NCBI GenBank assembly: GCA_902774185.1 | Contig: CACYHE010000008.1 | Span: 1 to 64,000 of the forward strand | Reading direction: 5' to 3' | DNA from: an uncultured Bacteroidales bacterium | GTDB lineage: Bacteria > Bacteroidota > Bacteroidia > Bacteroidales > Paludibacteraceae | DNA length: 64,000 bases | In this document: positions 8,595-62,528 of the stretch, piece after piece | Position numbering within the stretch: the stretch's first letter is position 1 | How the letters are laid out: every line of letters begins with the position of its first letter | The notes under the pieces: generated by a model | Databases searched by the model: none | The model's input: only the letters and a program-made list of their open reading frames with translations | Told to the model about the DNA's origin: nothing | Translations under genes and position numbers: made by a program

Positions 8595-9745
8595 AAAATC
8601 TTTGTATATTAGGTTCGACGGGGTCGATCGGAACGCAGACGCTGGATATCGTGCGGGCGTACCCCGAGCGCTATAGCGTCTATGCTATCTGTGCGAACCG
8701 CAGTGTCGATAAACTGGTGGAACAAGCCCTGGAGTTTCATCCCGAAGTGGTCTGCATCGCCGATGAGTCGTTATATGATACGCTCAACTCTCAACTCTCA
8801 ACTCTCAACTGTAAAGTGTGGGCCGGCCCCGACGCGATCGCTGAGCTAGTCACCATGCCGTCTATCGACATCGTCGTAGCCTCCATGGTGGGGTACGCCG
8901 GACTGCGTCCTACCATCGAAGCCATCAAAGCCGGTAAGACCATCGCGCTTGCCAACAAAGAGACGCTCGTCGTAGCCGGAGAGATCATCTGCGAATTGGC
9001 ACAACAGTACCATACGCCGATCTTACCGGTGGATAGCGAACACAGTGCGATCTTCCAATCCCTCGTCGGCGAAGACCGCAGTGAGATAGAGAAGATCCTG
9101 CTTACTGCCAGCGGAGGTCCCTTCCGTACGTTCACACTTGATCAGATGCGCTCTGTCACGGCTGACGATGCCCTCAAGCATCCTAACTGGGAAATGGGAG
9201 CCAAGATCACCATCGATTCCGCTTCGATGATGAACAAAGGCTTCGAAGTGATGGAAGCCAAATGGCTCTTTGGGGTACCGGTGGAGAAGATACAAGTACT
9301 CGTTCATCCGCAGTCTATTGTGCATTCGGCTGTTCAGTTCTCCGACGGTGCCATCAAGGCGCAACTCGGTGCACCCGACATGCATCTGCCCATCCAGTAC
9401 GCCCTCTCGTTCCCCGAACGACTCGCATCGGACTTCCCTCGTGCCGACCTGTTCGCACTCAAGAACCTGACGTTTGAACAACCGGACTTGGTACGCTTCC
9501 CCAACTTGGCACTCGCCTACGAAGCGATGCACCGGGGAGGAAACATCCCTTGCGTCCTCAATGCCGCCAACGAAGTGGTGAACCTCGCTTTCCGGCAAGG
9601 ACGCTGCGGCTTCCTGCAGATGTCTGACATCATCGCCGAAACGATGAACCAAGCGGACTTCATCCCAAAACCTACCTACGAAGATTACGTAGCTACCGAC
9701 ACTGCGGCACGCCGGATAGCCGAAAAAATGGTAAATGGTAAATGA
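8588..9745 (+). CDS. dxr: 1-deoxy-D-xylulose 5-phosphate reductoisomerase
   Basis: 385 aa. It converts DXP to MEP with NADPH, the committed step of the non-mevalonate isoprenoid pathway; ispG of the same pathway is at 49484. The NADPH site is GSTGSIGTQTLDIV; active-site motifs ANKETLVVAG, VDSEHSAIFQ and SMMNKGFEVMEAKWLF are intact. The start is the ATG at 8588, seven bases before the upstream stop ends. Residues 65-75 (TLNSQLSTLNC) are encoded by a perfect array of four CTCAACT units and look like an insertion after the strand VVCIADE. The C-terminus MVNGK and its stop come from a second repeat, GGTAAAT. Confidence 0.95.
   Translation: MVKNLCILGSTGSIGTQTLDIVRAYPERYSVYAICANRSVDKLVEQALEFHPEVVCIADESLYDTLNSQLSTLNCKVWAGPDAIAELVTMPSIDIVVASMVGYAGLRPTIEAIKAGKTIALANKETLVVAGEIICELAQQYHTPILPVDSEHSAIFQSLVGEDRSEIEKILLTASGGPFRTFTLDQMRSVTADDALKHPNWEMGAKITIDSASMMNKGFEVMEAKWLFGVPVEKIQVLVHPQSIVHSAVQFSDGAIKAQLGAPDMHLPIQYALSFPERLASDFPRADLFALKNLTFEQPDLVRFPNLALAYEAMHRGGNIPCVLNAANEVVNLAFRQGRCGFLQMSDIIAETMNQADFIPKPTYEDYVATDTAARRIAEKMVNGK
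8783..8810 (+). repeat. Heptad array (CTCAACT)x4 inside dxr
   Basis: Four perfect copies of CTCAACT, 28 bases, within the reading frame. The same unit occurs in the untranslated region between deoD and kdsB. Confidence 0.9.
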
Positions 9746-9764
9746 CCAAATAGTAAATGACTTT
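9729..9764 (+). repeat. Heptad-like array GGTAAAT at the dxr/rseP junction
   Basis: GGTAAAT, GGTAAAT, GACCAAA, TAGTAAA, TGACTTT run directly into the rseP start. The array supplies the dxr stop codon. A close relative lies at 15129-15165. Confidence 0.75.
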
Positions 9765-11192
9765 ATGATACAAGCAATACAGTTAATATGCGCATTGGCC
9801 TTTCTCGTGTTGATTCACGAGTTGGGACATTTTACTTTCGCCAAGATCTTCCATGTGCGTGTGGAGAAGTTCTATCTCTTCTTCAACCCTTGGTTCTCCA
9901 TCATCAAGATGAAGAAATTCGATGGTAAATGGCATTTTAAGTTCTTTACCAGGAATCAGGGAGAGGAAGATGAATGGGCGCAACATCCGGAAAATACGGA
10001 GTGGGGACTTGGTTGGCTGCCTCTTGGCGGTTACTGCGCCATCGGAGGTATGGTCGATGAGACGCACAAGACGGAAGACCTGGCGCCCGAACCGCAAGCT
10101 TGGGAGTTTCGTTCCAAACCGGCTTGGCAACGCATGTTCATCATCTTAGGCGGTATCCTCGTTAACTTCATCGGTGCCCTCGTCATCTTCTCCATGCTCC
10201 TTTGGCACTGGGGACAGGACACCTTACCGCTGCGTAACGTGACCACCGGTCTGTGCTATTCGCAGATTCTGTTGGATGAAGGATTCGAGCAACAGGATAA
10301 GATCCTCTTTATTAACGGCAAAGAACCCGAAGACCTGGGTGAAGTGATTGAAGCCATCCTCATCGAAGGTAAGCAGAATGTCGTCGTGCTGCGCGGTTCG
10401 GACACCGTACAACTGATGATGTCGGAGGACTTAGGCACCCGTTACTTGGCAGAACAGAACGCGTTCGACAAAGCGGAGCGGGATAAGAAACGGGCGAATA
10501 AAGACTATACCAAGCGACGTATGACCTTGGTGTCCGAATGGATCCCGTGTGTCATCGATACCGTCTTCCCGAACGAAGCGGGCGCTCTGGCAGGCTTGCG
10601 CAAAGGAGACAGCATCGTCACGGTGAACGATATCCCTACGCCTTGTCTGACCTTGCTGAATCGAGAGATGCGCCATCATACGGACGACACGATAACCGTT
10701 GCTTATTACCGTGCCGGAGAATACTGCACCGTACAGGCCATCGTCAAAAACGGTTCGCTGGGTTTTGCTGCTAAATGGGATTTCAAAGTGAAGCACCGGG
10801 ACTATACTTTCTTGGAATCCATCCCTGCCGGTATCGAGTACGGATGGGGTATCTTGACGATGTATGTCAAGCAATTCCGTCTGGTGTTCACCAAAGAAGG
10901 CGCACAATCGGTAGGCGGCTTCGGTGCAATCGGTTCGATGTTCCCCTCCACTTGGAGTTGGCAATCGTTCTGGCATATGACCGCCTTCCTCAGTATCATC
11001 CTTGCCTTCATGAACTTCCTGCCCATACCGGCTTTGGACGGCGGATACATCCTCTTCCTGCTGGTAGAGATGATCACCCGCCGCAAACCGAGCGATAAGT
11101 TCTTGGAGAAAGCCAACGAGATCGGTTTCTGGCTCTTGCTCCTCCTCCTTATCCTGGCGAACGGTAACGATTTATTAAAGCTGTTTTTCTGA
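9765..11192 (+). CDS. rseP: Site-2 zinc metalloprotease RseP
   Basis: 475 aa inner-membrane protease that cuts transmembrane anchors such as anti-sigma factors and leftover signal peptides. The zinc site HELGH lies in the first membrane segment (LVLIHELGHF); the second conserved motif, NFLPIPALDGGYILF, is near the C-terminus and supplies the aspartate ligand. A PDZ-like domain lies between (AGALAGLRKGDSIVTVNDI). I chose the ATG at 9765 because the in-frame upstream codons lie in a repeat array and the membrane segment starts at once from here. The location after dxr matches the frequent dxr-rseP order. Confidence 0.93.
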   Translation: MIQAIQLICALAFLVLIHELGHFTFAKIFHVRVEKFYLFFNPWFSIIKMKKFDGKWHFKFFTRNQGEEDEWAQHPENTEWGLGWLPLGGYCAIGGMVDETHKTEDLAPEPQAWEFRSKPAWQRMFIILGGILVNFIGALVIFSMLLWHWGQDTLPLRNVTTGLCYSQILLDEGFEQQDKILFINGKEPEDLGEVIEAILIEGKQNVVVLRGSDTVQLMMSEDLGTRYLAEQNAFDKAERDKKRANKDYTKRRMTLVSEWIPCVIDTVFPNEAGALAGLRKGDSIVTVNDIPTPCLTLLNREMRHHTDDTITVAYYRAGEYCTVQAIVKNGSLGFAAKWDFKVKHRDYTFLESIPAGIEYGWGILTMYVKQFRLVFTKEGAQSVGGFGAIGSMFPSTWSWQSFWHMTAFLSIILAFMNFLPIPALDGGYILFLLVEMITRRKPSDKFLEKANEIGFWLLLLLLILANGNDLLKLFF

Positions 11193-11194
11193 TT

Positions 11195-14625: not shown

Positions 14626-15146
14626 ATTATTTTGTCCATGAATCGTCCTACGTGGACGAAGGTTGTCAAATAGGTGCGGGCACGAAGATCTGGCATTTTA
14701 GCCATGTTATGTCCGGTTGCATCATCGGTGAGAAATGCAATATCGGTCAGAACGTGGTGATATCGCCCGATGTGGTTTTAGGCCGTAATTGCAAGATCCA
14801 GAACAACGTATCCGTCTATACCGGTGTGCGTTGCGAGGACGATGTGTTTCTGGGGCCCTCGATGGTCTTCACCAACGTCATCAATCCCCGTGCAGCGGTT
14901 AGTCGCAAAGATGAATACAAACAGACCCTCCTCAAACGCGGTGTTTCTGTCGGAGCGAATGCCACCATCGTGTGCGGTCACACCTTAGGCGAGTACTGCA
15001 TGATCGGTGCCGGTTCGGTAGTAACCAAAGATGTGCCTGCCTATGCCCTGATGGTCGGTAACCCTGCCCGCCAAATAGGATGGGTCAACGCCCATGGCGA
15101 TAAATGCGCATCCCTCGAAGAGGCCCAAATGGTAAATGGTAAATGA
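14622..15146 (+). CDS. Left-handed beta-helix N-acetyltransferase (WbpD-like)
   Basis: 174 aa, built from hexapeptide repeats ([74 protein letters not shown]). The opening [20 protein letters not shown] and [17 protein letters not shown] match the UDP-2-acetamido-3-amino-glucuronate N-acetyltransferase subgroup, which makes sugars for surface polysaccharide. No other gene of such a pathway is nearby, so the exact sugar is uncertain. It overlaps the DUF4249 gene by four bases. The last residues, MVNGK, and the stop come from a GGTAAAT array, as in dxr. Confidence 0.85.
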
Positions 15147-16683: not shown

Positions 16684-17695
16684 CAAGCATACCGCAGGCG
16701 GCAAGGATATCTTCGCCTCGGGAACGACGAATGGTTGTGGTGATGCCGTTATCGGTCAGATAATCGCGGAACCACGCCATTTGTTTTTCGTCTGAGGAAG
16801 GAAAATGTCTTTCAACTTTCGACTTTTGACTTTTGACTTCTTCTACGCCTTCGTGAAAACGAATCAGGTTAATGCGGCAGTTAAGTCCCTTCAGCAGGCG
16901 CAATAACTCTTTCGCATGACGGATCGTATCGTTCTGACCTGCCCAACAGATATATTCAAAACTGACGCGTCGTTGATGCGACCAATCGTATTGCTTGAGC
17001 AACGCTACGACATCCGTGATGGACAGCATCTTCTCTGCCGGCATGATTTCTTTACGCTCTGCAGCAAAGGGATTATGCATCGATACCGCCAGATGGCACT
17101 CGCTCTCGTCTAAGAACCGCTTCATGGCAGGGATACCAACCGTCGATACCGTGATACGTTTCGGTGACCAGGCGCACCCGTACGGAGCGGTCATGATCTC
17201 CAAGGAGCGCAAGACATTGTCGATATTATCCATCGGTTCCCCTTCGCCCATGAAGACGATATTGGTCAAATCATCAAAGTAGAAAATCTGATTCAGGATG
17301 TCCGCAGCCGACAGATGACCATGAAAACCAAGAGTTCCCGTCATGCAGAACTTACAGCCCATCTTACAGCCCGCCTGCGTGGATACGCAGAGGGTAGCGC
17401 GATCCTCTTCCGGGATATAAACCGACTCAATGAATTGTTCGCCTACCGCAAACAAATACTTCCGTGTCCCGTCTGCACTGACCGCTTCCCGAACCGGTGC
17501 ATGACGACCGATGGTATAGTTGGCTTTTAACGCTTCCCGTCCTTTCAGACTGATATTGCTCATCGCATCGAACGTACTGACCCGACGCACATAGAGCCAC
17601 TCTGCCAATTGTTTACCGGCGAACTTCTGCAAACCGACGGACAACGCCACTTGCTGCAATTCTTCTAATGTTTTACCTAACAGAACCTCCATCAC
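16646..17695 (-). CDS. rlmN: Dual-specificity rRNA/tRNA A2 methyltransferase (radical SAM)
   Basis: 349 aa. It methylates C2 of A2503 in 23S rRNA and A37 in some tRNAs. The radical SAM cluster motif is CKMGCKFCMTG; FMGEGEPMDN and the SAM-binding RITVSTVGIP are present, and the late catalytic cysteine is in the AACGML segment. Residues near 287-297 (KSQKSKVERHF) are encoded by an imperfect heptad array and appear inserted into an otherwise conserved region before the DYLTDNGITTTIRRSRG segment. The start overlaps the stop of the LytTR gene (ATGA), so these two are co-translated. Confidence 0.95.
   Translation of the reverse strand: MMEVLLGKTLEELQQVALSVGLQKFAGKQLAEWLYVRRVSTFDAMSNISLKGREALKANYTIGRHAPVREAVSADGTRKYLFAVGEQFIESVYIPEEDRATLCVSTQAGCKMGCKFCMTGTLGFHGHLSAADILNQIFYFDDLTNIVFMGEGEPMDNIDNVLRSLEIMTAPYGCAWSPKRITVSTVGIPAMKRFLDESECHLAVSMHNPFAAERKEIMPAEKMLSITDVVALLKQYDWSHQRRVSFEYICWAGQNDTIRHAKELLRLLKGLNCRINLIRFHEGVEEVKSQKSKVERHFPSSDEKQMAWFRDYLTDNGITTTIRRSRGEDILAACGMLVNALSQCADKQM
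16809..16836 (-). repeat. Heptad array inside rlmN
   Basis: On the plus strand the units are CTTTCAA, CTTTCGA, CTTTTGA, CTTTTGA, 28 bases, within the reading frame. It belongs to the same family as the TTTCAAC arrays in intergenic regions. Confidence 0.8.
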
Positions 17696-18685: not shown

Positions 18686-18781
18686 ATGAAAACTGCAAAA
18701 CGAATCGGATTTGACCTCTTGGTCGCATTGTATTGCTTACAGTTACCGGCTGTAATCGCCTATTTGGTATATAATCTATAA
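18686..18781 (+). CDS. 31-aa hydrophobic peptide
   Basis: This short frame starts 46 bases after a good promoter. It has a basic start (MKTAKR) and one hydrophobic segment (FDLLVALYCLQLPAVIAYLV), and ends after YNL. It looks like a single-span membrane peptide or a very short leader peptide. It is followed after 27 bases, filled by TTTCAAC repeats, by an SGNH-like gene on the same transcript. Divergence from a membrane LytTR regulator suggests a regulated peptide, but whether it is a signal, a toxin-like peptide or a structural subunit cannot be said. Confidence 0.55.
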   Translation: MKTAKRIGFDLLVALYCLQLPAVIAYLVYNL

Positions 18782-18808
18782 ACTTTCAACTTTCAACTTT
18801 CAACTAGT
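18782..18808 (+). repeat. (TTTCAAC) heptad array
   Basis: Three perfect TTTCAAC units fill the gap between the 31-aa peptide gene and the next ATG at 18809. Confidence 0.85.
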
Positions 18809-21113: not shown

Positions 21114-21147
21114 ATATCTAAATCTTTAAACTTTCAACTTTCAACTC

Positions 21148-21903
21148 TTATCTCTTTTTCTTCAAATTTCCAAACATAACGCCTACGTACAAGCGAGGAC
21201 CGTTCGGCGTCTCAAAACTGCTCCATTTGAGGTTCTTTCCCAAATGGGCAATACCGTCATTCGGAATACGGAACGACAGCATATAGTCGATGCGAATAAG
21301 TAGCGCCATGTGATTTCCCAACCCGATCTCAAATCCTACATACGGGTCTAACAGGAAAATAGGCGTTTTGACGTACGATGAGTTGTAAATGGTGGAATCA
21401 GCACCTCCTGCAGACACAGGTACGTACTCCGTTTCGGGTACATACAGGCGTTTCATCGAACCGCCTCCGATGGTCATACCGATCAACGGACGCACGTTAC
21501 CCCAGTTGCCGTAGTAATCGCAGAACACGCCTCCCCAAGCGGTGCGAACATTCGAACCGGTGCTCATCAAAGGCATCGTGCTCACGAATCCTTCAGCGCC
21601 CAAGTGAATATGATCTATCAGATGAACACGCAGTGCACCACCCAGACCGTATTCGAAACCGGATTTAGGCAAACCTTTTACATAAGATTTACTACCCAAA
21701 CCTTCATTACTGAATACTTTCTCCGGCGTATCAGAGAACAGATAGCCGCCGTGCAGCATCATACCTCCGGAGAAACCCGTATAGACGGGACGGGAAGAAC
21801 CGGAACTTTTTTCTTTGACAGGACGGTCCTCGGCCTCCTGCTCTTGAGCCATCAGACCCAAGGGCAGAAGAACCAAAGCCATCATGATTAAATGTTTTCT
21901 CAT
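21148..21903 (-). CDS. Outer-membrane beta-barrel protein of unknown function
   Basis: 251 aa with a signal peptide (MRKHLIMMALVLLPLGLMAQ), a charged linker, then alternating beta strands with Gly/aromatic spacing (FSGGMMLHGGYLF, FEYGLGGALRVHLIDHIHLG, DPYVGFEIGLGNHMALLIRIDY, RLYVGVMFGNL). This fits an eight- to ten-strand barrel of the OmpW/porin-like class. The stop-side gene is yidC after a 34-base gap holding TTTCAAC units; the start overlaps the deoD stop by four bases. No function can be assigned. Confidence 0.7.
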   Translation of the reverse strand: MRKHLIMMALVLLPLGLMAQEQEAEDRPVKEKSSGSSRPVYTGFSGGMMLHGGYLFSDTPEKVFSNEGLGSKSYVKGLPKSGFEYGLGGALRVHLIDHIHLGAEGFVSTMPLMSTGSNVRTAWGGVFCDYYGNWGNVRPLIGMTIGGGSMKRLYVPETEYVPVSAGGADSTIYNSSYVKTPIFLLDPYVGFEIGLGNHMALLIRIDYMLSFRIPNDGIAHLGKNLKWSSFETPNGPRLYVGVMFGNLKKKR

Positions 21904-22654: not shown

Positions 22655-22707
22655 CTTTCAACTTTCAACTTTAAACTTCTCTCAACTCTCAACTCTCAAC
22701 TCTCAAC
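22655..22707 (-). repeat. Heptad arrays between kdsB and deoD
   Basis: Plus-strand units CTTTCAA and CTCAACT (three perfect CTCAACT copies near 22681-22704) fill the gap and reach the kdsB stop. The CTCAACT unit is the one found inside dxr. Confidence 0.85.
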
Positions 22708-23452
22708 CATTAAATTTGTACCATTCAATGGCCTTCGCCAAATCTTCCGGCGTATCGATTCCTATCGTCGGTGTCTCTGTCACGCCTACCCGAATCGTAT
22801 AACCGTTCTCCAACCAACGCAACTGTTCCAAGCGTTCTGCTATCTCCAACGGACTCTGCGGTAACTTCGTGATCTTCGTCAGTACGTCTGCCCGATAGGC
22901 GTAGATACCGATATGCCGGTAATGACTACCGTCTGCACATGCCACCACCTTACGGGTAAACATCCTCGCTACGCCCGTCGCCTTGTCCCAATTGACCTTC
23001 GGCGTGTTCACGTTCTCCAGATCCGCCTGACTGTCTTTGTCGGTGAACGGTCGAACCAAGGTAGCAATATCCGTACCCGGTTTGTCAAAACACTTCATCA
23101 GCGCCTCTATCTGCTCTGGTTGAATGAACGGCTCATCCCCTTGGATATTAATAACCACGGTGTCCGTGTCGTTCTGCTCCCGCCAAGAAGTGGTGGTAAT
23201 CGCTTCGTAGGCTTCCAGGCAACGGTCCGTACCGCATTTATGATCCGCACGCGTCATGACAACTTTACCGCCAAAAGCCTCCACCGCATCATAGATGCGT
23301 TCGTCATCGGTGGCAACAACCACCGTGTCCAAAGCCTTACTGGCTTGCTCATAGACCCTGCGGATAACCGTCTTACCGCAGATCTCTGCTAACGGCTTGC
23401 CCGGAAAACGGGTGGACGCATACCGCGCCGGTATAATTCCTATAAATTTCAT
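22703..23452 (-). CDS. kdsB: CMP-3-deoxy-D-manno-octulosonate cytidylyltransferase
   Basis: 249 aa. It activates Kdo with CTP for lipid A-core assembly. The nucleotide-binding opening IPARYASTRFPGKPLAEICG, the divalent-metal motif NIQGDEPFI, and RHIGIYAYRADVL and PTIGIDTPEDL are all in place. The length is normal. It lies between mfd and deoD on the same strand; lpxK, another lipid A gene, is at 36449. Confidence 0.96.
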   Translation of the reverse strand: MKFIGIIPARYASTRFPGKPLAEICGKTVIRRVYEQASKALDTVVVATDDERIYDAVEAFGGKVVMTRADHKCGTDRCLEAYEAITTTSWREQNDTDTVVINIQGDEPFIQPEQIEALMKCFDKPGTDIATLVRPFTDKDSQADLENVNTPKVNWDKATGVARMFTRKVVACADGSHYRHIGIYAYRADVLTKITKLPQSPLEIAERLEQLRWLENGYTIRVGVTETPTIGIDTPEDLAKAIEWYKFNG

Positions 23453-23455
23453 ATC

Positions 23456-23507
23456 TCTTAACTTTCAACTTTCAACCTTAAACTTTCAACTCTCCACTCT
23501 CAACTTT
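23456..23507 (-). repeat. TTTCAAC/CTCAAC repeats at the mfd/kdsB junction
   Basis: Imperfect heptads of the TTTCAAC family cover the intergenic space and extend into the last codons of mfd, which ends in SKVESGELKV. Confidence 0.75.
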
Positions 23508-26500
23508 CGAGAGGAGCGTTATCGCTCCTCCTATCGAACGTACATTCGTAATGGTGATATATCTCCTTCCGGTCTTCAATCCTTTCTTGTCTTTCTCTTC
23601 GTGCAGCGAACAGCGTTCCGGTCGCGTAACGGCATATTGCACAAAATTACCAAATGCCTCGCTCTGCCAATACGCGTCTTTATGTTGCACAAAATACATC
23701 GTCAGATGTTCACCTTTCAGTAGCACTTTCTCGATACCCAACTTGCAACACAACCACCTCAACCGTACTACTTCCAACAACTCGTTTGCCGGTTCCGGTA
23801 ACACCCCGAAGCGGTCAATAAGCCGTTTGCGAAAATCCAATAACTGTTCTTCGCTGCTCAGGCTGTCCAACTCCCGATACAACGTGATACGCTCCGATAT
23901 GTTCTCGATATAATCGGTCGGAAAACAAACCGGCAAATCCGTCTCTAACTGCGAATCTTGACACCAGAGATGTTTTCCACCATTTTCATCATTGAGCGAC
24001 GTAGTCGCGCTCATTTCATCATTTACCGCGAGTTCTTCGCGGAGTTCCTCCACCGCCTCGTTCAGTATCCGTTGGTACGTCTCGTATCCCAAATCAGCAA
24101 TAAAGCCACTTTGCTCGGACCCCAACATGTTTCCGGCTCCTCGGATATCCAAGTCCTGCATCGCCAGATTAAATCCTGCCCCTAACTCAGCAAACGTACT
24201 CAAGGCCTCCAAACGCCGTCTTGCATCTTCGGTCAACAACTCTTTCTCCGGCGCGATCAAATAACAATACGCCTTGCGGTTACTTCGTCCTACGCGTCCT
24301 CTCAACTGGTGCAAGTCCGCCAGACCGTACTTGTCCGCACTGAAGATGAGTATCGTGTTCACGTTCGGTATATCCACACCTGACTCGATGATGGTCGTCG
24401 AAAGCAGGATGTCATAGTCATAATTGATGAACGCTTCCAGCCGCTCTTCCATCTCTTCTGCCGGCAACTGTCCGTGTGCGGTTACGATACGCGCCTCAGG
24501 TACTAACTTCCGGATCCGTTTCTCGATACGCGGTAACATCTCAATGCGGTTATTGACGATGAACACCTGTCCGTTCCGCTCCATCTCCATCTCGATCGCC
24601 TCTTTGATGATATCCTCATCATCGATGGTGATCAACTCCGTCTGAACGGGATACCGGTTCGGGGGGGGAGTAGTCATGATACTCAGATCCCGTGCACCTA
24701 ACAACGAGAACTGCAACGTTCTCGGTATCGGCGTTGCTGTCAAAGTCAGCACATCAACGTTCGTTCGCAGACTCTTCAACTTCTCTTTCGCTGCCACACC
24801 GAACTTCTGCTCCTCGTCGATAATCAGCAATCCCAAATCGTGCCACTTCACGCTCTTGCCGATGATCTTATGCGTACCGATCAAAATATCTATCTTTCCC
24901 GCTTCCAGGTCCGCCAAGATCTCTTTTATCTGTTTCGGACTCTTCAAACGACTCAGGTACTCAATCCTCACCGGCAGGTTCTTCATTCGTTCCGTGAACG
25001 TATTATAGTGTTGCAGCGCCAGGACCGTTGTCGGAACCAATACCGCTACCTGCTTGCCGTCTGTCGCTACCTTAAACGCCGCACGCATCGCTACTTCCGT
25101 CTTACCGAATCCCACATCGCCGCATATCAACCGGTCCATCGGCATCGGACTCTCCAGATCACGCTTCACATCAGCGGTCGCCTTTGCCTGATCCGGTGTG
25201 TCTTCGTATAAAAACGAAGCCTCTAACTCATGCTGCATGTATCCGTCGGGCGAGTAGGCAAAACCTTTCTGCTGCTTTCTGGTTGCATACAACCGAATCA
25301 GGTCCCGTGCGATATCCTTCACTTTATCCTTCGTCCGCTCTTTCAGCCGTTCCCAGGCACCCGAACCCAAACGTGCTATCGTCGGTTCCGAACCCTCACG
25401 ACCCTTGTACTTGCTAATCCGATGCAAGTTATGGATACTCACAAACACATTCGCGCCGTCACGGTAGTTCAATTTAATCATCTCCTGCGGTTTCCCGTTC
25501 ACGGGCGTCGTTACCAAACCACCGAACTTCGCAATTCCATGGTCGCTATGAACCACATAATCGCCGATCTGCAACTGGTTAATCTCCCGTAACGTGATAA
25601 TCGCCTTACCTCTTCGTGCGTTCTCGCTACTCATCTGTACGCGGTGGAAACGCTCAAAGATCTGATGATCGGTATAGCAGCATATCTTCAACTCCCGATC
25701 TACAAACCCCTCATGCAACGTCGCGTTGATGCCGATGAAACGAATACCTGTAGCGTTAGCGTCCTGTAGGCTCGCAGAGCCGTCCTCTAAACTCTCAAAG
25801 ATCGCCTTCAAGCGATCCAGCTGTTTCTGCTGTTCTGCCAGAATGTATATCTTGTACCCCTCGTCGATATGCTTTTTCAGATCTTCCGTCAATATATCGA
25901 ACTGCTTATGGAATACCGGTTGCGGCATCGTGTCGAAGCTCACCTTCGTATATTCCGCAAACGTACTCTTCTCATTGATTTCAATAGTTCTGTGTTCCTC
26001 TAATCTATAGGCTGTAGGCCGTCCTGTAGCGCTAGCGTCCTGTAGGCTCGCAGAGCCGTCCAACTTAAATTTGACCATCGTCCAATCATTGCTCACCCAC
26101 ACGAAATCTTCTGTCAGATACTCCGTGATGAATGCATCATTTGCTCCATTAAGCACGGAGGATTGCCTGTGGCCATCCGAATCGAGCAAGTCACCATTCG
26201 CACCATTCGAAGAACCAACAATTTCCGCGAAATCGATCTTGTTCTTCGACAACTGATCCTCTATATCAAACTCCCTGATACTCTCTATCTCATCTCCGAA
26301 GAAGTCCAATCGGTAGGGATTATCGTGACTATAACTGTATATATCCACAATACTTCCTCTTACCGCATACTGCCCGGGTTGGAACACAAAATCCACTCGC
26401 TCAAATCCCAAGTCTGATAACTGACTACTGAGTGCTGACTGCTGTATCTCCTGTCCCACTTTCACCTGAAAACTAACCGCCATCAACTCCTCCTTCGCCG

Positions 26501-26975
26501 GTACCGGTTCCGCCATCGCCTCAGGGTAGGTTACTACAATAAGCGGATGTGTAATTCGGTCTGTGCTCTGTGTTCTGTGTTCTGTGCTCCTTTCTAACGC
26601 CGTCAGGCATTCCGTCCGCTGTATCACAGCTGCATCATCGATAGTCCGTCTGCGTTTACTGCTCGGAAAAAATAAGACTTCACCCTTCCCTTCAGGGGTG
26701 AAGAGCTTTGCTCGATCGGACTGCCAGTGGCCGTCCGTAGAACATCGCGGGATGAGGCTTCTTAAGTCGCTATACACGTACTGTGCACTTTCTGCGTTGT
26801 CAAAGATCACAAATAAGGGCGTGCGTACTTGCGCCAACACCAGCGCGCGTGCAGATGCATGTAACCCGCTCAAAAGGACATGTCTATCCCCTTTCGCCTT
26901 TAACCTTTCGCCGATCACCTTTATCTGCGGATGCTGCCCAAACAGTATTTCCAGATCCTCTATCTGCACGTGCAC
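23478..26975 (-). CDS. mfd: Transcription-repair coupling factor
   Basis: 1165 aa. Mfd releases RNA polymerase stalled at lesions and recruits UvrA. The order is the UvrB-like N-terminal module, RNA polymerase interaction domain (YRDGANVFVSIHNLHRISKYKG region), helicase domains (CGDVGFGKTEVAMRAAFK, LLIIDEEQKFG, LTLTATPIPRTL) and C-terminal TRCF domain. I chose GTG at 26975: the frame is open to 27113, but a promoter lies at 26998-27030, so translation must begin downstream of it, and no in-frame ATG exists there. The N-terminal third is interrupted by low-complexity insertions: two copies of a 13-residue DGSASLQDAxATG module and two heptad arrays. Confidence 0.93.
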   Translation of the reverse strand: MHVQIEDLEILFGQHPQIKVIGERLKAKGDRHVLLSGLHASARALVLAQVRTPLFVIFDNAESAQYVYSDLRSLIPRCSTDGHWQSDRAKLFTPEGKGEVLFFPSSKRRRTIDDAAVIQRTECLTALERSTEHRTQSTDRITHPLIVVTYPEAMAEPVPAKEELMAVSFQVKVGQEIQQSALSSQLSDLGFERVDFVFQPGQYAVRGSIVDIYSYSHDNPYRLDFFGDEIESIREFDIEDQLSKNKIDFAEIVGSSNGANGDLLDSDGHRQSSVLNGANDAFITEYLTEDFVWVSNDWTMVKFKLDGSASLQDASATGRPTAYRLEEHRTIEINEKSTFAEYTKVSFDTMPQPVFHKQFDILTEDLKKHIDEGYKIYILAEQQKQLDRLKAIFESLEDGSASLQDANATGIRFIGINATLHEGFVDRELKICCYTDHQIFERFHRVQMSSENARRGKAIITLREINQLQIGDYVVHSDHGIAKFGGLVTTPVNGKPQEMIKLNYRDGANVFVSIHNLHRISKYKGREGSEPTIARLGSGAWERLKERTKDKVKDIARDLIRLYATRKQQKGFAYSPDGYMQHELEASFLYEDTPDQAKATADVKRDLESPMPMDRLICGDVGFGKTEVAMRAAFKVATDGKQVAVLVPTTVLALQHYNTFTERMKNLPVRIEYLSRLKSPKQIKEILADLEAGKIDILIGTHKIIGKSVKWHDLGLLIIDEEQKFGVAAKEKLKSLRTNVDVLTLTATPIPRTLQFSLLGARDLSIMTTPPPNRYPVQTELITIDDEDIIKEAIEMEMERNGQVFIVNNRIEMLPRIEKRIRKLVPEARIVTAHGQLPAEEMEERLEAFINYDYDILLSTTIIESGVDIPNVNTILIFSADKYGLADLHQLRGRVGRSNRKAYCYLIAPEKELLTEDARRRLEALSTFAELGAGFNLAMQDLDIRGAGNMLGSEQSGFIADLGYETYQRILNEAVEELREELAVNDEMSATTSLNDENGGKHLWCQDSQLETDLPVCFPTDYIENISERITLYRELDSLSSEEQLLDFRKRLIDRFGVLPEPANELLEVVRLRWLCCKLGIEKVLLKGEHLTMYFVQHKDAYWQSEAFGNFVQYAVTRPERCSLHEEKDKKGLKTGRRYITITNVRSIGGAITLLSKVESGELKV
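25747..25785 (-). repeat. 39-nt palindromic insert module in mfd, copy A
   Basis: It differs from 26023-26061 at one base and encodes DGSASLQDANATG. It contains GGCTCTGCGAGCC, able to form a small hairpin, and short inverted repeats around CCTACAGG. Confidence 0.85.
26023..26061 (-). repeat. 39-nt palindromic insert module in mfd, copy B
   Basis: It encodes DGSASLQDASATG, same frame and same strand as copy A, 276 bases apart start to start. The two copies make direct repeats within one gene. Confidence 0.85.
26414..26448 (-). repeat. Heptad array (CTGAnnn)x5 in mfd
   Basis: Plus-strand units CTGATAA, CTGACTA, CTGAGTG, CTGACTG, CTGTATC. They encode the stretch QQSALSSQLSDLG in the N-terminal module. 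Confidence 0.75.
26561..26588 (-). repeat. Heptad array (CTGTGYT)x4 in mfd
   Basis: Plus-strand units CTGTGCT, CTGTGTT, CTGTGTT, CTGTGCT, encoding STEHRTQSTDR. The same unit is used in the TrmH gene at 31488-31529. Confidence 0.85.
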
Positions 26976-27316: not shown

Positions 27317-27401
27317 TCATGCTACTTTTCTCCGTCTATTTTCACCGCATTGTATGCGGTCATCCCTTTGGAAAATTACAAATTCAAAAACATACATAAT
27401 T

Positions 27402-28370
27402 ATGAAGAAATTTTTTCTTTTTATCGCAGCCCTCTGCTGTGCAGTAACGATCAACGCTATCGAAGGTGCGTTGCACGGAGGTTTTACTATCAATTCTCAT
27501 GGAGACAAAATTCAATTCGCCAAAGGTAACTTGCAGTATCAAGCAAGTACAGACACTTGGCGTTTTGCCGAGAACCAATGGGATACAGTTGGCGTAGCCA
27601 ATAAGAATATATCAGAGTCTTATGATGGTTGGATTGATCTCTTCGGCTTTAGTACCGGTAATAAACCTACGGAGCGAAGTCAATATTACGACAATTATGA
27701 GACGACTTTCAACCATGACTGGGGAGCAAATGCTATCAGCAATGGAGGTAATGAACCGAATCACTGGAGAACGATGAGTCCCGACGAATGGGCATATATC
27801 TTTCATGAGCGTCAAAATGCGAAAAGTCGTCTTGGTTTAGGAAAAGTAAACGGCGTTAACGGTCTCATTCTCCTTCCGGATGATTGGGAGAAACCGATTA
27901 GTATGGAGTTTGCGTCCTGCGCAGTAAAAGGTTTTGAAACGCAATGGAATGGTAATCCCAAAATATGTATGTATTATGATGAGTCGGTCTATGCAGACCA
28001 TTATCCGGATAATGTATATACTTCTGAAGAATGGCAGGTGATGGAACAAGCTGGAGCTGTCTTCTTGCCGGCTGCAGGACTGCGTTATAATGGCACCTCC
28101 ATACAATATGTAAATAGTAGAGGCCATTATTGGACAACAACTGCAGGTTGCGTGGTGGAATTTCAAACATCCCATATGTATTCTGGAGATGCTTTTCAGC
28201 TTCAGTTTGGTGCCTCCGTTCGTCTTGTGCAACCTTATGATGAACACCAAGCCATCGACCAAATCGGCAATGACCAATCACAAATCACCAATAAGGCCAT
28301 CCGTGATGGCCAAATCCTCATCCTCCGTGGATCCAAGACCTACACGATGACCGGCCAAGAACTGAAGTAA
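27402..28370 (+). CDS. Secreted protein of unknown function, Bacteroidales FGE-like surface family
   Basis: 322 aa. The start is the ATG at 27402, where a signal peptide begins (MKKFFLFIAALCCAVTINA). The body has a repeated-family look: GKFT-like opening GGFTINSHGDKIQFAKGN, YQASTDTWRFAENQWDTVG, GWIDLFGF, HWRTMSPDEWAYIFHER, GVNGLILLPDDWE, AGAVFLPAAGLRY and GHYWTTTAG, followed by SVRLVQP. The C-terminus (GQILILRGSKTYTMTGQELK) is like the short sorting or read-out tails on many secreted Bacteroidales proteins. The role is unknown; surface exposure is inferred. A hairpin terminator follows at 28428. Confidence 0.65.
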   Translation: MKKFFLFIAALCCAVTINAIEGALHGGFTINSHGDKIQFAKGNLQYQASTDTWRFAENQWDTVGVANKNISESYDGWIDLFGFSTGNKPTERSQYYDNYETTFNHDWGANAISNGGNEPNHWRTMSPDEWAYIFHERQNAKSRLGLGKVNGVNGLILLPDDWEKPISMEFASCAVKGFETQWNGNPKICMYYDESVYADHYPDNVYTSEEWQVMEQAGAVFLPAAGLRYNGTSIQYVNSRGHYWTTTAGCVVEFQTSHMYSGDAFQLQFGASVRLVQPYDEHQAIDQIGNDQSQITNKAIRDGQILILRGSKTYTMTGQELK

Positions 28371-28455: not shown

Positions 28456-28837
28456 ATCTCCTTTCTTGTATGTCCATTCCGCCGGATTGAATCCGGCATA
28501 TCGAACTCAACCATCGATACCTATGCAATCCCTGTAAATTCAAGGCTTGCACCGTAGGCGTATTGGGTGATTATAGGGCGATTATTGCGTGATTATTGCG
28601 TGATTCAATACCATTTGTAATGATTGATTAGCAATGAATTTTATCTATGTTTATCGCTTTTAAATGGTTTGACACGCAGAGTGTGGATTAAGGGGATTGA
28701 GCAGATAGAGAAGTTCACTTATATAGATGCTCAAGCGCTTAATACACAGAATGCGAAGCATTGAAAGCATTTAAAAGTGTTTATCTTTGTTTATTTTCTT
28801 ATTAACTAGCCACTAACACAAAAAAATCTTCAAAAAT
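28456..28837. other. Non-coding gap before thrS
   Basis: I see no gene. It holds a small perfect hairpin (GCCGGATtgaATCCGGC, 28481-28497), a tandem motif of GATTATTGCGT type near 28570-28605, and an inverted pair around CTTTTAAATG (28661) and CATTTAAAAG (28769). The stretch 28681-28765 reads as a short open segment without a start. It may be decayed sequence. Confidence 0.5.
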
Positions 28838-30885: not shown

Positions 30886-31676
30886 CGGCGGAATTCTGCT
30901 AAGACAATAGCGGTCGCTATAGAAACGTTGAGGCTTTCGATAACTTCGGGAGCCTCTTCGCTTTTTCCGGAGTGCTCGGAAGCACCGTTTTTTGGATAGG
31001 AGGGGATACGAATCGGGTGGGTGATCAACTTCCGTACTTCCTGCGAGATACCGTTGCCCTCATTGCCCATCACGATAATAGTTGAAAGTTGAAAGTTGAA
31101 AGTTGAAAGGCTTTCATACATGTCCTTGCCTTCGAGAAGAGTGCCGATGATCGGGCATTGTTGCTCTTTCAGCCACTCCGGCAAGTCCACATAGTGGACC
31201 CGTACTCTTGCCAATGCTCCCATCGTAGCTTGAACCACCTTTGGGTTATAGCAGTCTGCCGTGTCTTTGGAACAAACGATATCATGCACCCCAAACCAAT
31301 CGCAAGTCCGTATAATAGTCCCCAGATTCCCCGGATCCTGCACCCCGTCAAGAGCAAGAATTAAATTTGAAATTTGAAATTTGAAATCACAAATGGAGTG
31401 TTTTCTAAACACTCCGATCACTCCCTGCGGTGTCCTCAATCCGCTCATCTGCTCAATCTCCGTCGGACTCGCCAAAAGATAATCGGTCTGTGTTCTGTGT
31501 CCTGTGTTCTGTGCTCTAAATTCTGTGCTCCGAATAAGATACACCAACTCGAACGATTTCGCCAATTCACCCACACATTTCTCCCCCTCTGCAACGAACA
31601 AACCCAACTCGTCACGGAACTTCTTTTGTTGCAAACTGCGAACCAGTTTGACCTGCGCTTTGCTGATTTTCTCCAT
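30882..31676 (-). CDS. TrmH/SpoU-family 2'-O-ribose RNA methyltransferase
   Basis: 264 aa. It methylates a ribose 2'-OH in rRNA or tRNA using SAM. The knot-fold motifs are [34 protein letters not shown] and [18 protein letters not shown]. The start ATG at 31676 is preferred to an upstream GTG because the promoter box ends at 31695. The gene has been invaded by repeats: (CTGTGTT)n encoding [21 protein letters not shown] units encoding [11 protein letters not shown], (GTTGAAA)x4 encoding [11 protein letters not shown], and an extra 15 or so residues ([17 protein letters not shown]) between the IPSY strand and ESLN. Without these it would have the usual 240-250 residues. Confidence 0.88.
30970..30987 (-). 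repeat. 18-nt palindromic element in the TrmH gene
   Basis: Identical to 59255-59272 next to the KilA-N remnant. Its core GTGCTcggaAGCAC is an inverted repeat. It encodes GASEH within an in-frame insertion. Confidence 0.75.
31081..31108 (-). repeat. Heptad array (GTTGAAA)x4 in the TrmH gene
   Basis: Four perfect 7-base units inside the reading frame, the reverse complement of the TTTCAAC units seen between genes. Confidence 0.9.
31363..31383 (-). repeat. Heptad array (AAATTTG)x3 in the TrmH gene
   Basis: Three perfect AAATTTG units followed by AAATCAC, in frame. The same unit precedes rnhB. Confidence 0.85.
31488..31529 (-). repeat. Heptad array (CTGTGYY) in the TrmH gene
   Basis: Six consecutive heptads (CTGTGTT, CTGTGTC, CTGTGTT, CTGTGCT, CTAAATT, CTGTGCT). 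Shares its unit with the mfd array at 26561. Confidence 0.85.
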
Positions 31677-31746: not shown

Positions 31747-31760
31747 CGCCAATTATGTAA

Positions 31761-33968: not shown

Positions 33969-33989
33969 ATCATAAATTTGAAATTTGAA

Positions 33990-34607: not shown

Positions 34608-34664
34608 ATGGCTAAATGATTAAATAAATCGTACATCGTAAATCGTTAAATCGTAAATTATATT
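34597..34664 (+). repeat. TTAAATG / AAATCGT repeats before sppA
   Basis: The rnhB end and the whole leader of sppA consist of units such as GACTAAAT, GGCTAAAT, AAATCGT. No standard promoter is seen, so sppA is probably read from tamL. Confidence 0.75.
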
Positions 34665-36448: not shown

Positions 36449-37465
36449 GTGAAACGATTCTTAACCATACCGCTCAGTAAGGCCTATCAGTTCGGTGTCT
36501 GGATACGGCATCAACTGTTCGACCATCATCTGCTGCGTGCGCACGCAGTAGAGATCCCTACTATCTGCGTAGGTAACTTAGCGGTGGGTGGAACCGGCAA
36601 GACCCCGATGACCGCTTATATCGTCCAACTCCTCTTGGACCACGGTTACCATCCTGCTGTCCTTTCACGTGGCTACAAACGTAAGACCCGGGGTTTCGTA
36701 TTGGCGGATGAACATGCCACCACACAAACGATAGGCGATGAAGCCATGCAACTTCATCTCACCTTCCCGAAGGTACCTGTTGCCGTTTGTGAGAACCGTG
36801 TCAAAGGAGTGCATCGTCTGCAGCAACAGGTCCCGAACATAGATGTCATCGTCTTAGACGATGCCATGCAGCATCGGGCAATCCACTGCGGCATGACCGT
36901 CATGCTCACCCCGTACGACAGGCTCTACATAGACGACCATATGTTGCCTTGGGGAACCCTGCGCGATATCCCATCACGTGCCCTCAAAGCAGATGCTATC
37001 GTGGTAACCAAATGTCCGGAAACGATACGACCCATCGACATGCGGGTGGTGGATAACCGGCTGCATCAGCCTACCTATCAGCAACTGCATTTTGCCGGCA
37101 TAGCGTACGCTCCTTTGACGCAAAAAGGAACGCCGCTCGTGCTTTGCGGCATCGCCCAACCCGAATACCTGATGACGCATGTGCAACAACATTATCCCCA
37201 AGCACAACTGATGGCATTTGCCGATCATCATACCTTCAGCAAACGGGACATCAACGCCATCCTGCAAAAGGCGAAACACTTCGATTTTGTGCTGACTACC
37301 GACAAAGACATGCAGCGCTTGCGTAATACCTCTCTGGAGCAGGAATTGCTCAAACAAGGCAAAGCCTTAGTCGTACAATCGATCCAAACCCGTTTCCTGA
37401 CTCCCGCCAAACACTTTGATGATCAGATCCTGAAATACGTTCGCAAGAACAAGCATAAATCGTAA
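36449..37465 (+). CDS. lpxK: Tetraacyldisaccharide 4'-kinase
   Basis: 338 aa. It phosphorylates the 4' position of the lipid A disaccharide at the inner membrane. The Walker A-like motif is GNLAVGGTGKTPM; VLSRGYKRKTRGF, IGDEAMQL and IVLDDAMQHRAIHCGM follow the family. It starts with GTG at 36449, 11 bases after sppA, and is probably co-transcribed. The next gene encodes an MsbA-like exporter, the usual genomic company of lpxK. Confidence 0.95.
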   Translation: MKRFLTIPLSKAYQFGVWIRHQLFDHHLLRAHAVEIPTICVGNLAVGGTGKTPMTAYIVQLLLDHGYHPAVLSRGYKRKTRGFVLADEHATTQTIGDEAMQLHLTFPKVPVAVCENRVKGVHRLQQQVPNIDVIVLDDAMQHRAIHCGMTVMLTPYDRLYIDDHMLPWGTLRDIPSRALKADAIVVTKCPETIRPIDMRVVDNRLHQPTYQQLHFAGIAYAPLTQKGTPLVLCGIAQPEYLMTHVQQHYPQAQLMAFADHHTFSKRDINAILQKAKHFDFVLTTDKDMQRLRNTSLEQELLKQGKALVVQSIQTRFLTPAKHFDDQILKYVRKNKHKS

Positions 37466-37489
37466 ATCGTAAATCGTTAAATCGTAAAT
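37456..37489 (+). repeat. (AAATCGT) heptad array
   Basis: AAATCGT units run from the last codons of lpxK to just before the start of the ABC exporter gene. Confidence 0.85.
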
Positions 37490-39370: not shown

Positions 39371-40473
39371 TGACGAAAGGTAAAATGTCAAATCCCAAAT
39401 CTCAAATCTCAAATGCAAAACCTAAGGTTTTGCTGGGTATGTCCGGTGGAATAGACTCCACCGTCAGCGCCATGCTCCTTCTGGAGCAGGGCTACGAAGT
39501 CATCGGTGTCACCTTCCGAACCTACGACTCGATGAAAGAGTCTTGTATCGCCAAAGAGAAAGGGTGCTGCACGATCGAGTCTATCATGGAGGCGAAGCAT
39601 AATGCCGAGAAGATGGGTTTTGAACATCATATCGTGGATTTCCGGGAGACCTTTAAGCGCTGCGTGATACAGAATTTTATCGATGAGTACATGTCCGGTA
39701 GGACACCGAACCCGTGTGTGCTATGTAACAGTACGATCAAATGGGGTGAGATGCTGCATTTGGCCGATGAGATGGGATGCGATTTTATTGCGACGGGTCA
39801 TTATGCAAGGGTTGCTGAGAAAGCAGGACATGTCTATCTGCGCATGGGGGCGGACACGAAGAAGGACCAGACTTATTTCCTATGGATGCTGACGGAGGAA
39901 CAGTTGAAACGTACGATCTTTCCCTTGGGCGACTACACGAAGGAACAGGTGAGGAAAATAGCAAGGCAACACGGCTACGAGAAACTGGCGGTGAAGAAAG
40001 AAAGTCAGGAGATCTGTTTCATACCCAATGATGACTACCGTTCGTTCTTACGCACGCACGTACCCGATTATAAGGAACGCGTACACGCAGGTGAGTACGT
40101 GGATGCACAGGGCAAGGTGTTAGGTATGCACGAGGGATATGTGAACTACACCATCGGTCAACGCAAGGGGCTGGGAATTGCACTCGGTCACCCGGCTTAT
40201 ATCACCCATATTGATGCGAAAACGAACCGCATTACGTTGGGAACGAATGACGATATGTGGGCAACGGAGTTGCACTTTCGTCCATTCGCCATTCGTCCTT
40301 TCGGCCTTTCGCCATTAACGGCGAAGGTGCGTTATCGTTCCCAGGCCGTTCCTGTCAAAAAAATAGACGGGAATTGCATTGAATTTGCAACTCCCGTCTG
40401 GGGTATCACGCCGGGTCAATCGGTCGTGCTCTATTCAGACGATTTGGTCGTTGGCGGTGGAATAATCCAGTAA
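39370..40473 (+). CDS. mnmA: tRNA-specific 2-thiouridylase MnmA
   Basis: 367 aa. It makes 2-thiouridine at U34 of Lys, Glu and Gln tRNAs; tRNA-Gln and tRNA-Lys genes are in this window. PP-loop GMSGGIDSTVSAM, catalytic cysteines in TPNPCVLCNS and SQEICFIP, and FATPVWGITPGQSVVLY at the end. The N-terminal 15 residues (MTKGKMSNPKSQISN) come from four TCAAATC-like heptads, and FRPFAIRPFGLSPLT before the last domain comes from five more. The ATG overlaps the upstream TAA. Confidence 0.95.
   Translation: MTKGKMSNPKSQISNAKPKVLLGMSGGIDSTVSAMLLLEQGYEVIGVTFRTYDSMKESCIAKEKGCCTIESIMEAKHNAEKMGFEHHIVDFRETFKRCVIQNFIDEYMSGRTPNPCVLCNSTIKWGEMLHLADEMGCDFIATGHYARVAEKAGHVYLRMGADTKKDQTYFLWMLTEEQLKRTIFPLGDYTKEQVRKIARQHGYEKLAVKKESQEICFIPNDDYRSFLRTHVPDYKERVHAGEYVDAQGKVLGMHEGYVNYTIGQRKGLGIALGHPAYITHIDAKTNRITLGTNDDMWATELHFRPFAIRPFGLSPLTAKVRYRSQAVPVKKIDGNCIEFATPVWGITPGQSVVLYSDDLVVGGGIIQ
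39388..39415 (+). repeat. Heptad array (YCAAATS)x4 at the start of mnmA
   Basis: TCAAATC, CCAAATC, TCAAATC, TCAAATG: 28 bases within the first codons. Confidence 0.8.
40279..40313 (+). repeat. Heptad-like array in mnmA
   Basis: CGTCCAT, TCGCCAT, TCGTCCT, TTCGGCC, TTTCGCC, in frame near the C-terminal domain boundary. Confidence 0.65.
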
Positions 40474-43383: not shown

Positions 43384-44007
43384 TCACTTTTTTAGCTTCT
43401 GATGGCACTGCTCGATATACATTTTTGTCATGGCGCGTACCCAGCAGTACTCCCATTGCGGATCCTCAAACAGTTTATCTGCCCGTTCGAACCACTGCAA
43501 TGCCGCCTGCTTGCTGCCGAAAGGCTTAGGAGCAAAGAAAAGGCAGGTGGCGAAATATGCCAAGGTCAGCGGATCTTCCGGTGCCAGTTGTACCGCTGAT
43601 TGAGCGAGACTCATCGCCTTGACCGGACGCATCGACTCATGTAACCGCAGTTCATACACATAGACCGCCGACATGTACATCTCATAATGGCCTTTGGGCA
43701 GTTGTGATTTATGTGCTTGGACATGCTGCTTGAACTGCTTGACGTACGGCAAGGCATGTGCCTTATCCCGATCGACCATGTACCCGCAGAAACCGTATTC
43801 GTAGAGTAACGAATTATTGTGTAATGTGTAATGTGTAATGTGTAATGTGTCCACATACGTTTTCCACTCCGTCATGTCTTCACGTAGATAGGCATCCAGC
43901 ATGATACTATCCGCAGAGAAAGTCCCTGCGGATAGTGAGATGCTGAAGAGTAAAGCAGCAATTACTTGCCGCGCTCGAGCAATAACGTGCGAGTCGGTTG
44001 ATCGCAT
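43384..44007 (-). CDS. Exported TPR-like protein
   Basis: 207 aa. The start is taken as the ATG at 44007, overlapping the end of pfp by 46 bases; it gives a basic n-region and a hydrophobic core ([17 protein letters not shown]), a plausible signal peptide. The body has TPR-like helices ([45 protein letters not shown]). Residues near 54-63 ([13 protein letters not shown]) are encoded by four perfect GTGTAAT heptads (reverse strand) and look inserted. The function is unknown. It is probably read together with pfp. Confidence 0.65.
43819..43846 (-). repeat. Heptad array (GTGTAAT)x4 inside the TPR gene
   Basis: Four perfect 7-base units, 28 bases in frame. Confidence 0.9.
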
Positions 44008-60477: not shown

Positions 60478-60487
60478 CAATAATTTC

Positions 60488-62497: not shown

Positions 62498-62500
62498 AGT

Positions 62501-62528
62501 AAATATCAAATATCAAATTTCAAATTTC
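62501..62528 (-). repeat. Heptad array (AAATATC)x2 (AAATTTC)x2
   Basis: 28 bases between transketolase and the next gene; the last unit supplies part of the stop codon of the upstream gene. Confidence 0.85.

Follow-up and report, generated by a model that had tools for sequence, protein, structure and literature searches.

Short heptanucleotide arrays with preferred ends and lengths between and inside the genes of an uncultured Bacteroidales bacterium

The first 64,000 nucleotides of contig CACYHE010000008.1, from an uncultured Bacteroidales bacterium of the family Paludibacteraceae (GenBank assembly GCA_902774185.1), hold short tandem arrays of seven-base units, both at gene junctions and inside conserved genes such as dxr, mfd, and rlmN. 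We refer to this whole stretch as the window. The question that the window raises is whether such arrays are a statistic of replication slippage or the mark of a specific process. In the window and in further samples of the genome, we observed a constant period, families of units, preferred ends, a preferred length, a biased placement, and sequence turnover between congeners. Thus, the feature is real, widespread in the lineage, and more structured than simple slippage predicts.

We counted 19 exact period-7 runs in the window, a run being scored from 10 lag-7 matches upward, whereas 10 dinucleotide shuffles averaged 0.0; each other period from 4 to 24 gave at most 5. Every array named in the original prediction, which was made from the sequence letters, was recovered at or a few bases from its expected place. 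The genome comprises 2.19 Mb in 35 contigs and is 87% complete. A 464-kb sample of it (the window, together with the opening 20 kb of each of 20 contigs) contained 90 exact period-7 arrays, and one shuffle of it contained 0; the runner-up periods were 14 (33), 21 (26), and 15 (15). With mismatches allowed, this sample held 134 period-7 arrays (28.9 per 100 kb), 78 of them coding by a simple open reading frame (ORF) rule. A held-out set, consisting of a second 400 kb of the same genome fetched later and separate from the first sample, gave 115 imperfect period-7 arrays against 0 shuffled, followed by periods 14 (29), 15 and 21 (18 each), and 8 (16). Period 7 therefore leads the tandem-repeat scan in both sets.

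The period stays constant while the unit changes, as had been predicted: the 134 arrays fall into 58 unit classes, the commonest with 13 members. Same-class pairs numbered 233, compared with 26.4 when letters were shuffled within units (maximum 47 in 500 shuffles) and 33.2 when stop status was kept as well (maximum 51 in 200). Unit sharing extends to arrays from other phyla, with 156 shared against 58.8 (maximum 89) after exclusion of the AAAGTTG family and with stop status kept. Within the genome, 233 of 8911 pairs share a unit, versus 185 of 13802 pairs formed with congeners.

Each family also tends to begin and end at particular bases of its unit. Across 11 families (66 arrays), 76 pairs had the same start phase and 68 the same end phase, against 29.7 expected (standard deviation [SD], 5.1). 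AAAGTTG arrays begin AGTTGAA in 9 of 13 cases, and a simulation of this family indicated that chance extension yields even start phases. Among the 53 held-out arrays that belong to families with a prediction, 27 started and 31 ended in the predicted phase, where 7.6 (one in seven) would be expected. The bias was present in internal coding arrays alone (64 same-start and 55 same-end pairs against 20.5; SD, 4.2) and in noncoding arrays alone (52 and 71 against 25.2; SD, 4.7). Length is likewise concentrated, with 30 to 33 bases in 40 of 93 coding arrays of the first set and 37 of 75 held-out ones. It is this length, instead of the 28 bases originally proposed, that recurs in coding arrays, and a rule by which a 28-base array would be one unit plus three (1+3n) was not borne out by coding lengths.

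The trait is patchy and crosses phyla. Period-7 arrays occur in 14 of 17 sampled congeners (5 to 38 per 100 kb), and the other 3 have none in the 40 kb sampled from each. Another period is ahead of 7 in genomes G030 and G034 and ties with it in G003 and G006. No such array was present in 20 other genomes of the order (297.6 kb in all), among them 3 of the same family. In one contig sample, several contigs were very short, down to 422 bases. A search for (CTTTCAA)x3 matched 25 of 393 genomes of the order, our own included, and genomes found in this way held 39 period-7 arrays in 339 kb, with none in G073 (60 kb) or G152 (20 kb) despite their matches. The nearest relatives among the loci listed belong to rumen or deer metagenome-assembled genomes: L175 (titled Paludibacteraceae; 91.5% over 271 amino acids), L135 (titled Bacteroidales; 90.8%), and L174 (titled Prevotella; 88.6%).

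An exact (CTTTCAA)x4 search returned at least 120 stretches, of which 80 were listed. Among these listed matches, record titles name Clostridiales, Chamaesiphon, Moorena, Acidobacteria, Parcubacteria, Geobacter, Planctomycetota, Chloroflexi, Opitutaceae, and others, and cross-phylum AAAGTTG arrays of at least 35 bases start with AGTTGAA in 26 of 80. Also among the matches listed, an array start of AGTTGAAAG was seen in records titled Clostridiales, Chamaesiphon, Patescibacteria, Gammaproteobacteria, and Opitutaceae, a start that the search pattern itself favors in arrays below 35 bases. For 26 loci chosen by title as non-Bacteroidota from the 80 listed, several of which share one genome, 10 of 20 starts were in our phase, as were 6 of 20 ends (P = 0.055). 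One Planctomycetota genome found through this search has 74 (overlapping) CTCTCAA x3 matches; 140 kb from its contigs with matches gave 71 period-7 arrays per 100 kb and zero period-8 arrays. In this genome, 208 same-start and 261 same-end pairs stand against 114.9 expected (SD, 9.9). CTCTCAA x3 was present in 3 of the 15 genomes examined.

We tentatively interpret these patterns, at slightly below even chances, as families of short dispersed heptanucleotide arrays that are templated or copied from a limited unit set and filtered by selection. Each family has a preferred first and last base, with a usual length here of about 30 to 33 bases, or four to five units. Arrays at new sites would arise by copying or templating from limited unit sequences in seven-base steps, presumably in trans and perhaps with the help of an enzyme, and would persist at sites where the cell can use or at least tolerate them. 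Within genes, the strand read is mostly the one that lacks stops, and the insert keeps the frame and lies in a loop of variable length. Where an array stands at a gene start, its pyrimidine-rich strand (CTGTGTT, AATTTTC, or ACTTTTC) encodes a signal-peptide-like hydrophobic core (h-region), and in two genes an AAAGGTG array also encodes the basic n-region; such array-built N termini may function in export. At junctions, because 7 is coprime to 3, a single stop codon in the unit is repeated in each of the three frames, and some units also contain an ATG, GTG, or TTG. In effect, the arrays supply short inserts that keep the frame or are safe at a junction.

Several observations weigh against templated copying. 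About half of the held-out arrays depart from the predicted start. Coding lengths in congeners lack a clear peak at 30 to 33 bases (18 of 88), and congener arrays agree with our phases at 17 of 30 ends but, without significance, at 7 of 30 starts (P = 0.13). Unit sharing in congeners is 7 of 517 pairs within a genome versus 66 of 4736 between genomes, an argument against spread within single genomes. Loci had their variant-unit order in common in 29 pairs versus 29.6 by chance, which speaks against block copying, at the low power that few variant units per array allow. Target-site duplications of at least 6 bases were rare, at 4 of 152 coding arrays (0.8 expected) and 2 of 96 noncoding arrays (1.4 expected), and their mean was nearly unchanged. 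Neither a reverse transcriptase (PF00078) nor Ku was found in our 87% complete genome, and among the families tested none tracks the array trait. The division into coding and noncoding arrays comes from a simple ORF rule, and the stop-codon orientation at junctions is partly ascertainment because a stop-free array would extend the ORF call. Lastly, the rightmost CTCAACT of the dxr array is present singly in relatives (e.g., L032, L039, and L040), which fits local slippage.

Candidates tried as correlates of the trait were rejected: Ku is present in 1 of 25 genomes, the Y-family polymerase PF00817 in 19 of 25, array-poor ones too, and reverse transcriptase PF00078 in 10 of 25, our own not among them. 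Direct or inverted flanking repeats showed a slight excess at most. Similar flanks were seen in 16 of 233 same-unit pairs versus 45 of 8672, a likeness that degenerate array edges can produce.

Local replication slippage with a strong seven-base bias, for example through polymerase contact, followed by purifying selection, is the rival that survives best, and we consider it possible, though rather unlikely. Each array would then grow from a local seed, for which the single dxr units in relatives are suitable, and an earlier proposal links the heptamer excess of bacteria to the stretch of DNA that occupies the active site of the polymerase (PMC4692102). The minor period-8 class, the variant order that is not common to loci, and the congener unit sharing that is no higher within genomes are all consistent with slippage as well. 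However, slippage does not account for ends that could be predicted in held-out arrays, for lengths in our genome that peak at 30 to 33 bases without a monotonic fall, or for units common to loci and phyla beyond composition and stop status. A local-seed test at junctions was null (4.20 versus 3.60 expected; 38 arrays, low power). Simple loss of mismatch repair is ruled out, as MutS1 and MutL scored above the cut-off in 18 of 18 congeneric genomes, array rich or array poor. Taken together, the preferred ends, the preferred length, and the cross-phylum arrays indicate that local slippage alone is insufficient.

The arrays in the window, by position and strand, are as follows.
8783..8810, plus strand: exact CTCAACT x4 in dxr, residues 80-89 (LNSQLSTLNC); length-neutral versus most congeners.
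9726..9744, plus strand: AAATGGT array spanning the dxr stop and the next start.
15127..15145, plus strand: AAATGGT array at the 14622/15151 junction, where congeners have other units.
16809..16839, minus strand: AAAGTCG-type array in rlmN, from about residue 286 (EVKSQKSKVE).
18781..18805, plus strand: AACTTTC array, noncoding by the ORF rule, ahead of an ATG at 18809.
21121..21156, minus strand: GTTGAAA array filling the 21148/21113 junction.
22655..22707, minus strand: AAAGTTG and then AGAGTTG arrays at the 22703/22622 junction.
23446..23508, minus strand: AAAGTTG-type array at the mfd 3' end and the mfd/kdsB junction, adjoining an 8-bp hairpin.
26414..26444, minus strand: degenerate CTGA-type array in mfd (QQSALSSQLS); 9 of 9 orthologues have the same length here.
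26560..26589, minus strand: GAACACA-type array in mfd (RSTEHRTQST), in a length-variable loop.
28268..28292, plus strand: weak AATCACC-type array near the 3' end of ORF 27354-28370.
31080..31109, minus strand: exact 30-base array in a TrmH-family gene, with an identical 30-mer at another locus of the genome.
31363..31387, minus strand: AAATTTC array in the TrmH-family gene, adjoining a 9-bp hairpin.
31487..31517, minus strand: AACACAG array in the TrmH-family gene, ending ACACAGACCGA.
31756-31795: weak array in tamL.
31825..31854, plus strand: AATTTTC array, apparent h-region of the lipoprotein signal peptide of an Omp85/POTRA gene (tamL of the original prediction).
33966..33991, plus strand: AAATTTG array at the junction of tamL and 33978.
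34625..34658, plus strand: TAAATCG array at the 33978/34665 junction.
37456..37489, plus strand: TAAATCG array filling the junction of lpxK and 37496.
39376..39414, plus strand: AAATCTC array at the beginning of the mnmA ORF, ahead of the HUP domain, adjoining an 8-bp hairpin.
43815..43850, minus strand: ACACATT array in an ORF without family matches.
62501..62531, minus strand: AAATATC/AAATTTC array filling the 62527/62509 junction before a transketolase-like gene.

The tamL and mnmA arrays, said to lie inside these genes, are present but stand at gene starts and not inside domains; in mnmA, the HUP domain begins at residue 19, after the array. The ORF at 43819, formerly taken for a TPR gene, has no Pfam or NCBIfam match. 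The window holds a second repeat class, period-11 arrays at 28561-28605 and 59610-59658 (TATTGGGTGAT and CTTGTCCTGTA). A 20-mer, AAAAAAGCAGTACCTTTGCA, has 9 copies in the 464-kb sample (e.g., L011 9919 and L019 16072); it resembles a Bacteroidetes -7 promoter box.

Arrays are denser between genes than within them, at 144 versus 18.3 per 100 kb by the ORF rule (held-out, 141.7 and 20.2). Co-directional gaps hold 47 of the 54 noncoding arrays with both flanks called, compared with 63% of noncoding bases (held-out, 28 of 35 arrays and 52%). Among short co-directional gaps, 33 of 108 have an array, and 20 of these 33 are at least 80% filled, in agreement with the earlier statement that units fill intergenic gaps; in the held-out set, 25 of 104 have an array, 14 of them filled to this degree. 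A weak period-7 signal was detected in 48 of 105 gaps versus 1 shuffled, and period 8 in 14 versus 0 (held-out, 39 of 104 versus 2, and 11 versus 0). Most junction units carry a stop in the sense direction (32 of 35; held-out, 21 of 25), and 27 of 35 are purine rich in sense. In 43 cases versus 14, noncoding arrays and their region have the same C-rich strand, a polarity that could be mere regional skew and not a replication-strand effect. Hairpins beside noncoding arrays showed no excess over random noncoding places.

This placement, with its co-directional preference, its purine-rich and stop-bearing sense units, and its strand agreement, is what a selected function at the RNA or DNA level might produce, with leader or regulator-binding arrays, as proposed for the TAACTGA repeats discussed below, and coding copies as by-products. 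We judge such a function improbable from the comparison of orthologous junctions, which skipped stretches of our genome above 220 bases and junctions with fewer than 4 genomes. Only 34 of 126 genome-junction cells hold an array over 10 junctions, and at the 14622/15151 junction, arrays in 8 of 16 genomes belong to five unit classes. All 8 of the 8 junctions with arrays in at least two genomes show more than one unit class. Thus, the period persists while the sequence turns over at orthologous junctions. Arrays were not clustered at particular junctions (6 junctions with at least three arrays versus 6.6 expected), and the coding majority of our arrays and their spread over so many unit classes also argue against this rival. 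At the 22703/22622 junction, G015, G030, G022, and G006 have period-8 arrays where other congeners have period 7.

Arrays that start at codons 4 to 40 have a different character from internal ones. They are hydrophobic in 14 of 28 cases versus 3 of 96 for internal arrays, and in congeners in 3 of 6 versus 3 of 51. Judged by eye, 13 of the 14 resemble signal-peptide cores (the exception is L011 10963), as in yialsVCVLCSVFCAplhaq from the CTGTGTT family and LSIFNFQFSIcsaq from the AATTTTC family. AAAGGTG arrays encode a basic stretch before the h-region in two genes (L295 8353-8441 and L308 11563-11645), and at the place of the tamL 31825 array, two congeners have unrelated h-regions. The tail ACACAGACCGATAATG is the reverse complement of the codons that precede CTGTGTT-type h-regions, and 6 of the genome's 7 ACACAGACCGA sites stand at the end of an AACACAG array; the pattern in reverse occurs 0 times. 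We do not claim a reading-frame lock within families, which was uneven and clear only for AATTTTC (7 of 7). The hydrophobic excess near starts and these two tail patterns would fit families made by protein-level selection or by duplication of a signal-peptide module, the loop and leader copies being secondary. Such an origin would mainly cover the CTGTGTT, AATTTTC, and AAAGGTG families, the phase bias persists in internal coding and noncoding arrays alone, and preferred ends have in part been seen in families with no signal-peptide member; we therefore regard it as quite improbable.

Inside conserved genes, arrays sit where orthologues differ in length: 17 of 20 coding arrays (ours and those of congeners, from only 4 genes) are at length-variable sites versus 159 of 1128 random segments (Fisher P = 5e-12). 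Relative to the median orthologue, 12 are longer, 4 equal, and 4 shorter. This test dropped sequences with coverage below 70% or identity below 45%, out-of-frame or stop-bearing sequences, and second copies per genome, as well as genes with fewer than five sequences (TrmH included) and arrays without two anchors; because it kept only in-frame sequences, it says nothing on frame preservation. The predicted insertion into conserved genes is borne out by extra length at three sites. rlmN is 30 bases longer than its shortest orthologues, and in the RlmN model the array segment 282-295 has pLDDT below 50 (118-124 and 326-349 are low too). The TrmH 31487 stretch is 45 bases longer than in both compared close orthologues, G015 and G002, and the mfd 26560 array lies in a stretch of 120 bases that spans 72 to 126 in relatives. 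Insertion is not supported at two others, dxr, where 24 of 29 congener genes have the same length at the array (10 of 11 after the orthologue-length filters), and mfd 26414, with the same length in 9 of 9 orthologues; the original prediction had itself named likeness to relatives at these places as a ground for giving up insertion.

The TrmH-family gene of G002 (L060) has longer repeats, including TCTTACAGCAACGCGG x3, in loops where the window has heptamer arrays. A nonheptamer repeat is present in mfd, where near-identical in-frame stretches at 26019-26060 and 25743-25784 encode DGSASLQDA(S/N)ATG. Perfect hairpins of at least 7 bp adjoin 8 of 77 coding arrays (e.g., 31363-31387 and 39376-39414) versus 9 of 1000 random coding positions, and 4 of 75 held-out coding arrays versus 8 of 1500.

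Reading frames were intact in 27 of 30 array-holding orthologues, the other 3 having stops only in the first 24 aligned bases, before the likely start. We saw no frameshift at an array in these 30 (one genome per species; 18 orthologues were dropped for coverage and 7 for identity); two frameshifts among orthologues were in genes without arrays. At the array sites in rlmN, TrmH, and mfd, lengths differ by multiples of 3. Phase-variation switching, in which one unit gained or lost would shift the frame because 7 is not a multiple of 3, is thus unsupported and very improbable, the more so as dxr, mfd, and rlmN are among the genes concerned.

With ends and a length that are preferred and with sharing across phyla, the heptamer excess ceases to be a slippage statistic and becomes a question about a specific process. 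The arrays in loops and in signal-peptide-like segments point to a way in which repeats may become working protein segments in conserved genes, and a constant period with sequence turnover at orthologous junctions is a natural experiment on what a junction needs. As a broader conjecture, which we think unlikely as it stands, a sequence-directed activity in scattered members of many phyla would build heptamer arrays of about 30 bases with a preferred start and end, and its products would be raw material for new protein segments, including signal peptides.

Known repeats resemble these arrays in part. The short tandemly repeated repetitive (STRR) sequences of cyanobacteria are heptameric, and the likeness suggested in the original prediction is upheld, as tandem seven-base units occur here at many loci with period 7 overrepresented. 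Rickettsia palindromic elements and repetitive extragenic palindromic (REP)-like repeats are short and dispersed, with set ends, and some lie in genes in frame; they are palindromic and longer and are not known to have a heptamer period. Our arrays share their short dispersed form and differ by the heptamer period. As for transposon-like elements, the ends here are strongly preferred (27 and 31 of 53 held-out), yet about half of the copies depart from them; target-site duplication is rare (4 of 152 coding), and internal sequence inherited as a block was not seen (29 versus 29.6, low power).

TAACTGA heptamer direct repeats have been described in Beggiatoaceae, Cyanobacteria, and five Bacteroidetes (PMC4679880), and that paper records heptamer repeats in some Bacteroidetes, including Paludibacter, a record that the original prediction, which knew of none for Bacteroidales, had missed. 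Like ours, these repeats have a seven-base unit in short arrays, many ahead of start codons, with stops in all frames; some overlap the ends of upstream genes, they cross phyla, and other heptamer arrays occur in some Bacteroidetes (PMC4679880). In the main genome of that system, one unit dominates, related heptamers are rare, and repeats within proteins are found mainly toward the protein periphery (PMC4679880). Here, in contrast, there are many unit families, more than half of the arrays are coding, and there are preferred ends and signal-peptide-like use. TAACTGA is absent from our common unit classes, and nothing in the window resembles it except the degenerate array at mfd 26414.

The GGGNATC heptameric simple sequence repeats (SSRs) of Xanthomonas and Nostoc are likewise arrays of seven-base units, mostly of four units in Xanthomonas, with length and sequence varying between close species (PMC4692102). 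They are G rich and were studied intergenically (PMC4692102), whereas our units are mostly G poor on one strand, no near-uniform unit extends over loci (58 classes), and unit identity is not kept at a locus. The constant-size, variable-sequence tandem repeats of Bacillus and others have units of 20-21 or 52 bases (PMC8161180). As in our arrays, size is fixed while sequence varies between species, with several families per genome, though some congeners here also have period 8; our unit is 7 bases, and in-frame protein inserts are not described in the accessible part of that paper. A search of PMC4060949 found no passage on heptamers, and among the open-access records listed, titles and abstract openings make no mention of preferred ends or signal-peptide use of heptamer arrays. 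A bacterial heptamer excess had been noted earlier, and the 2015 paper states that detailed literature on it is lacking (PMC4692102). To this record, the present arrays add ends and a length that are preferred, use in signal-peptide-like segments, and sharing across phyla.

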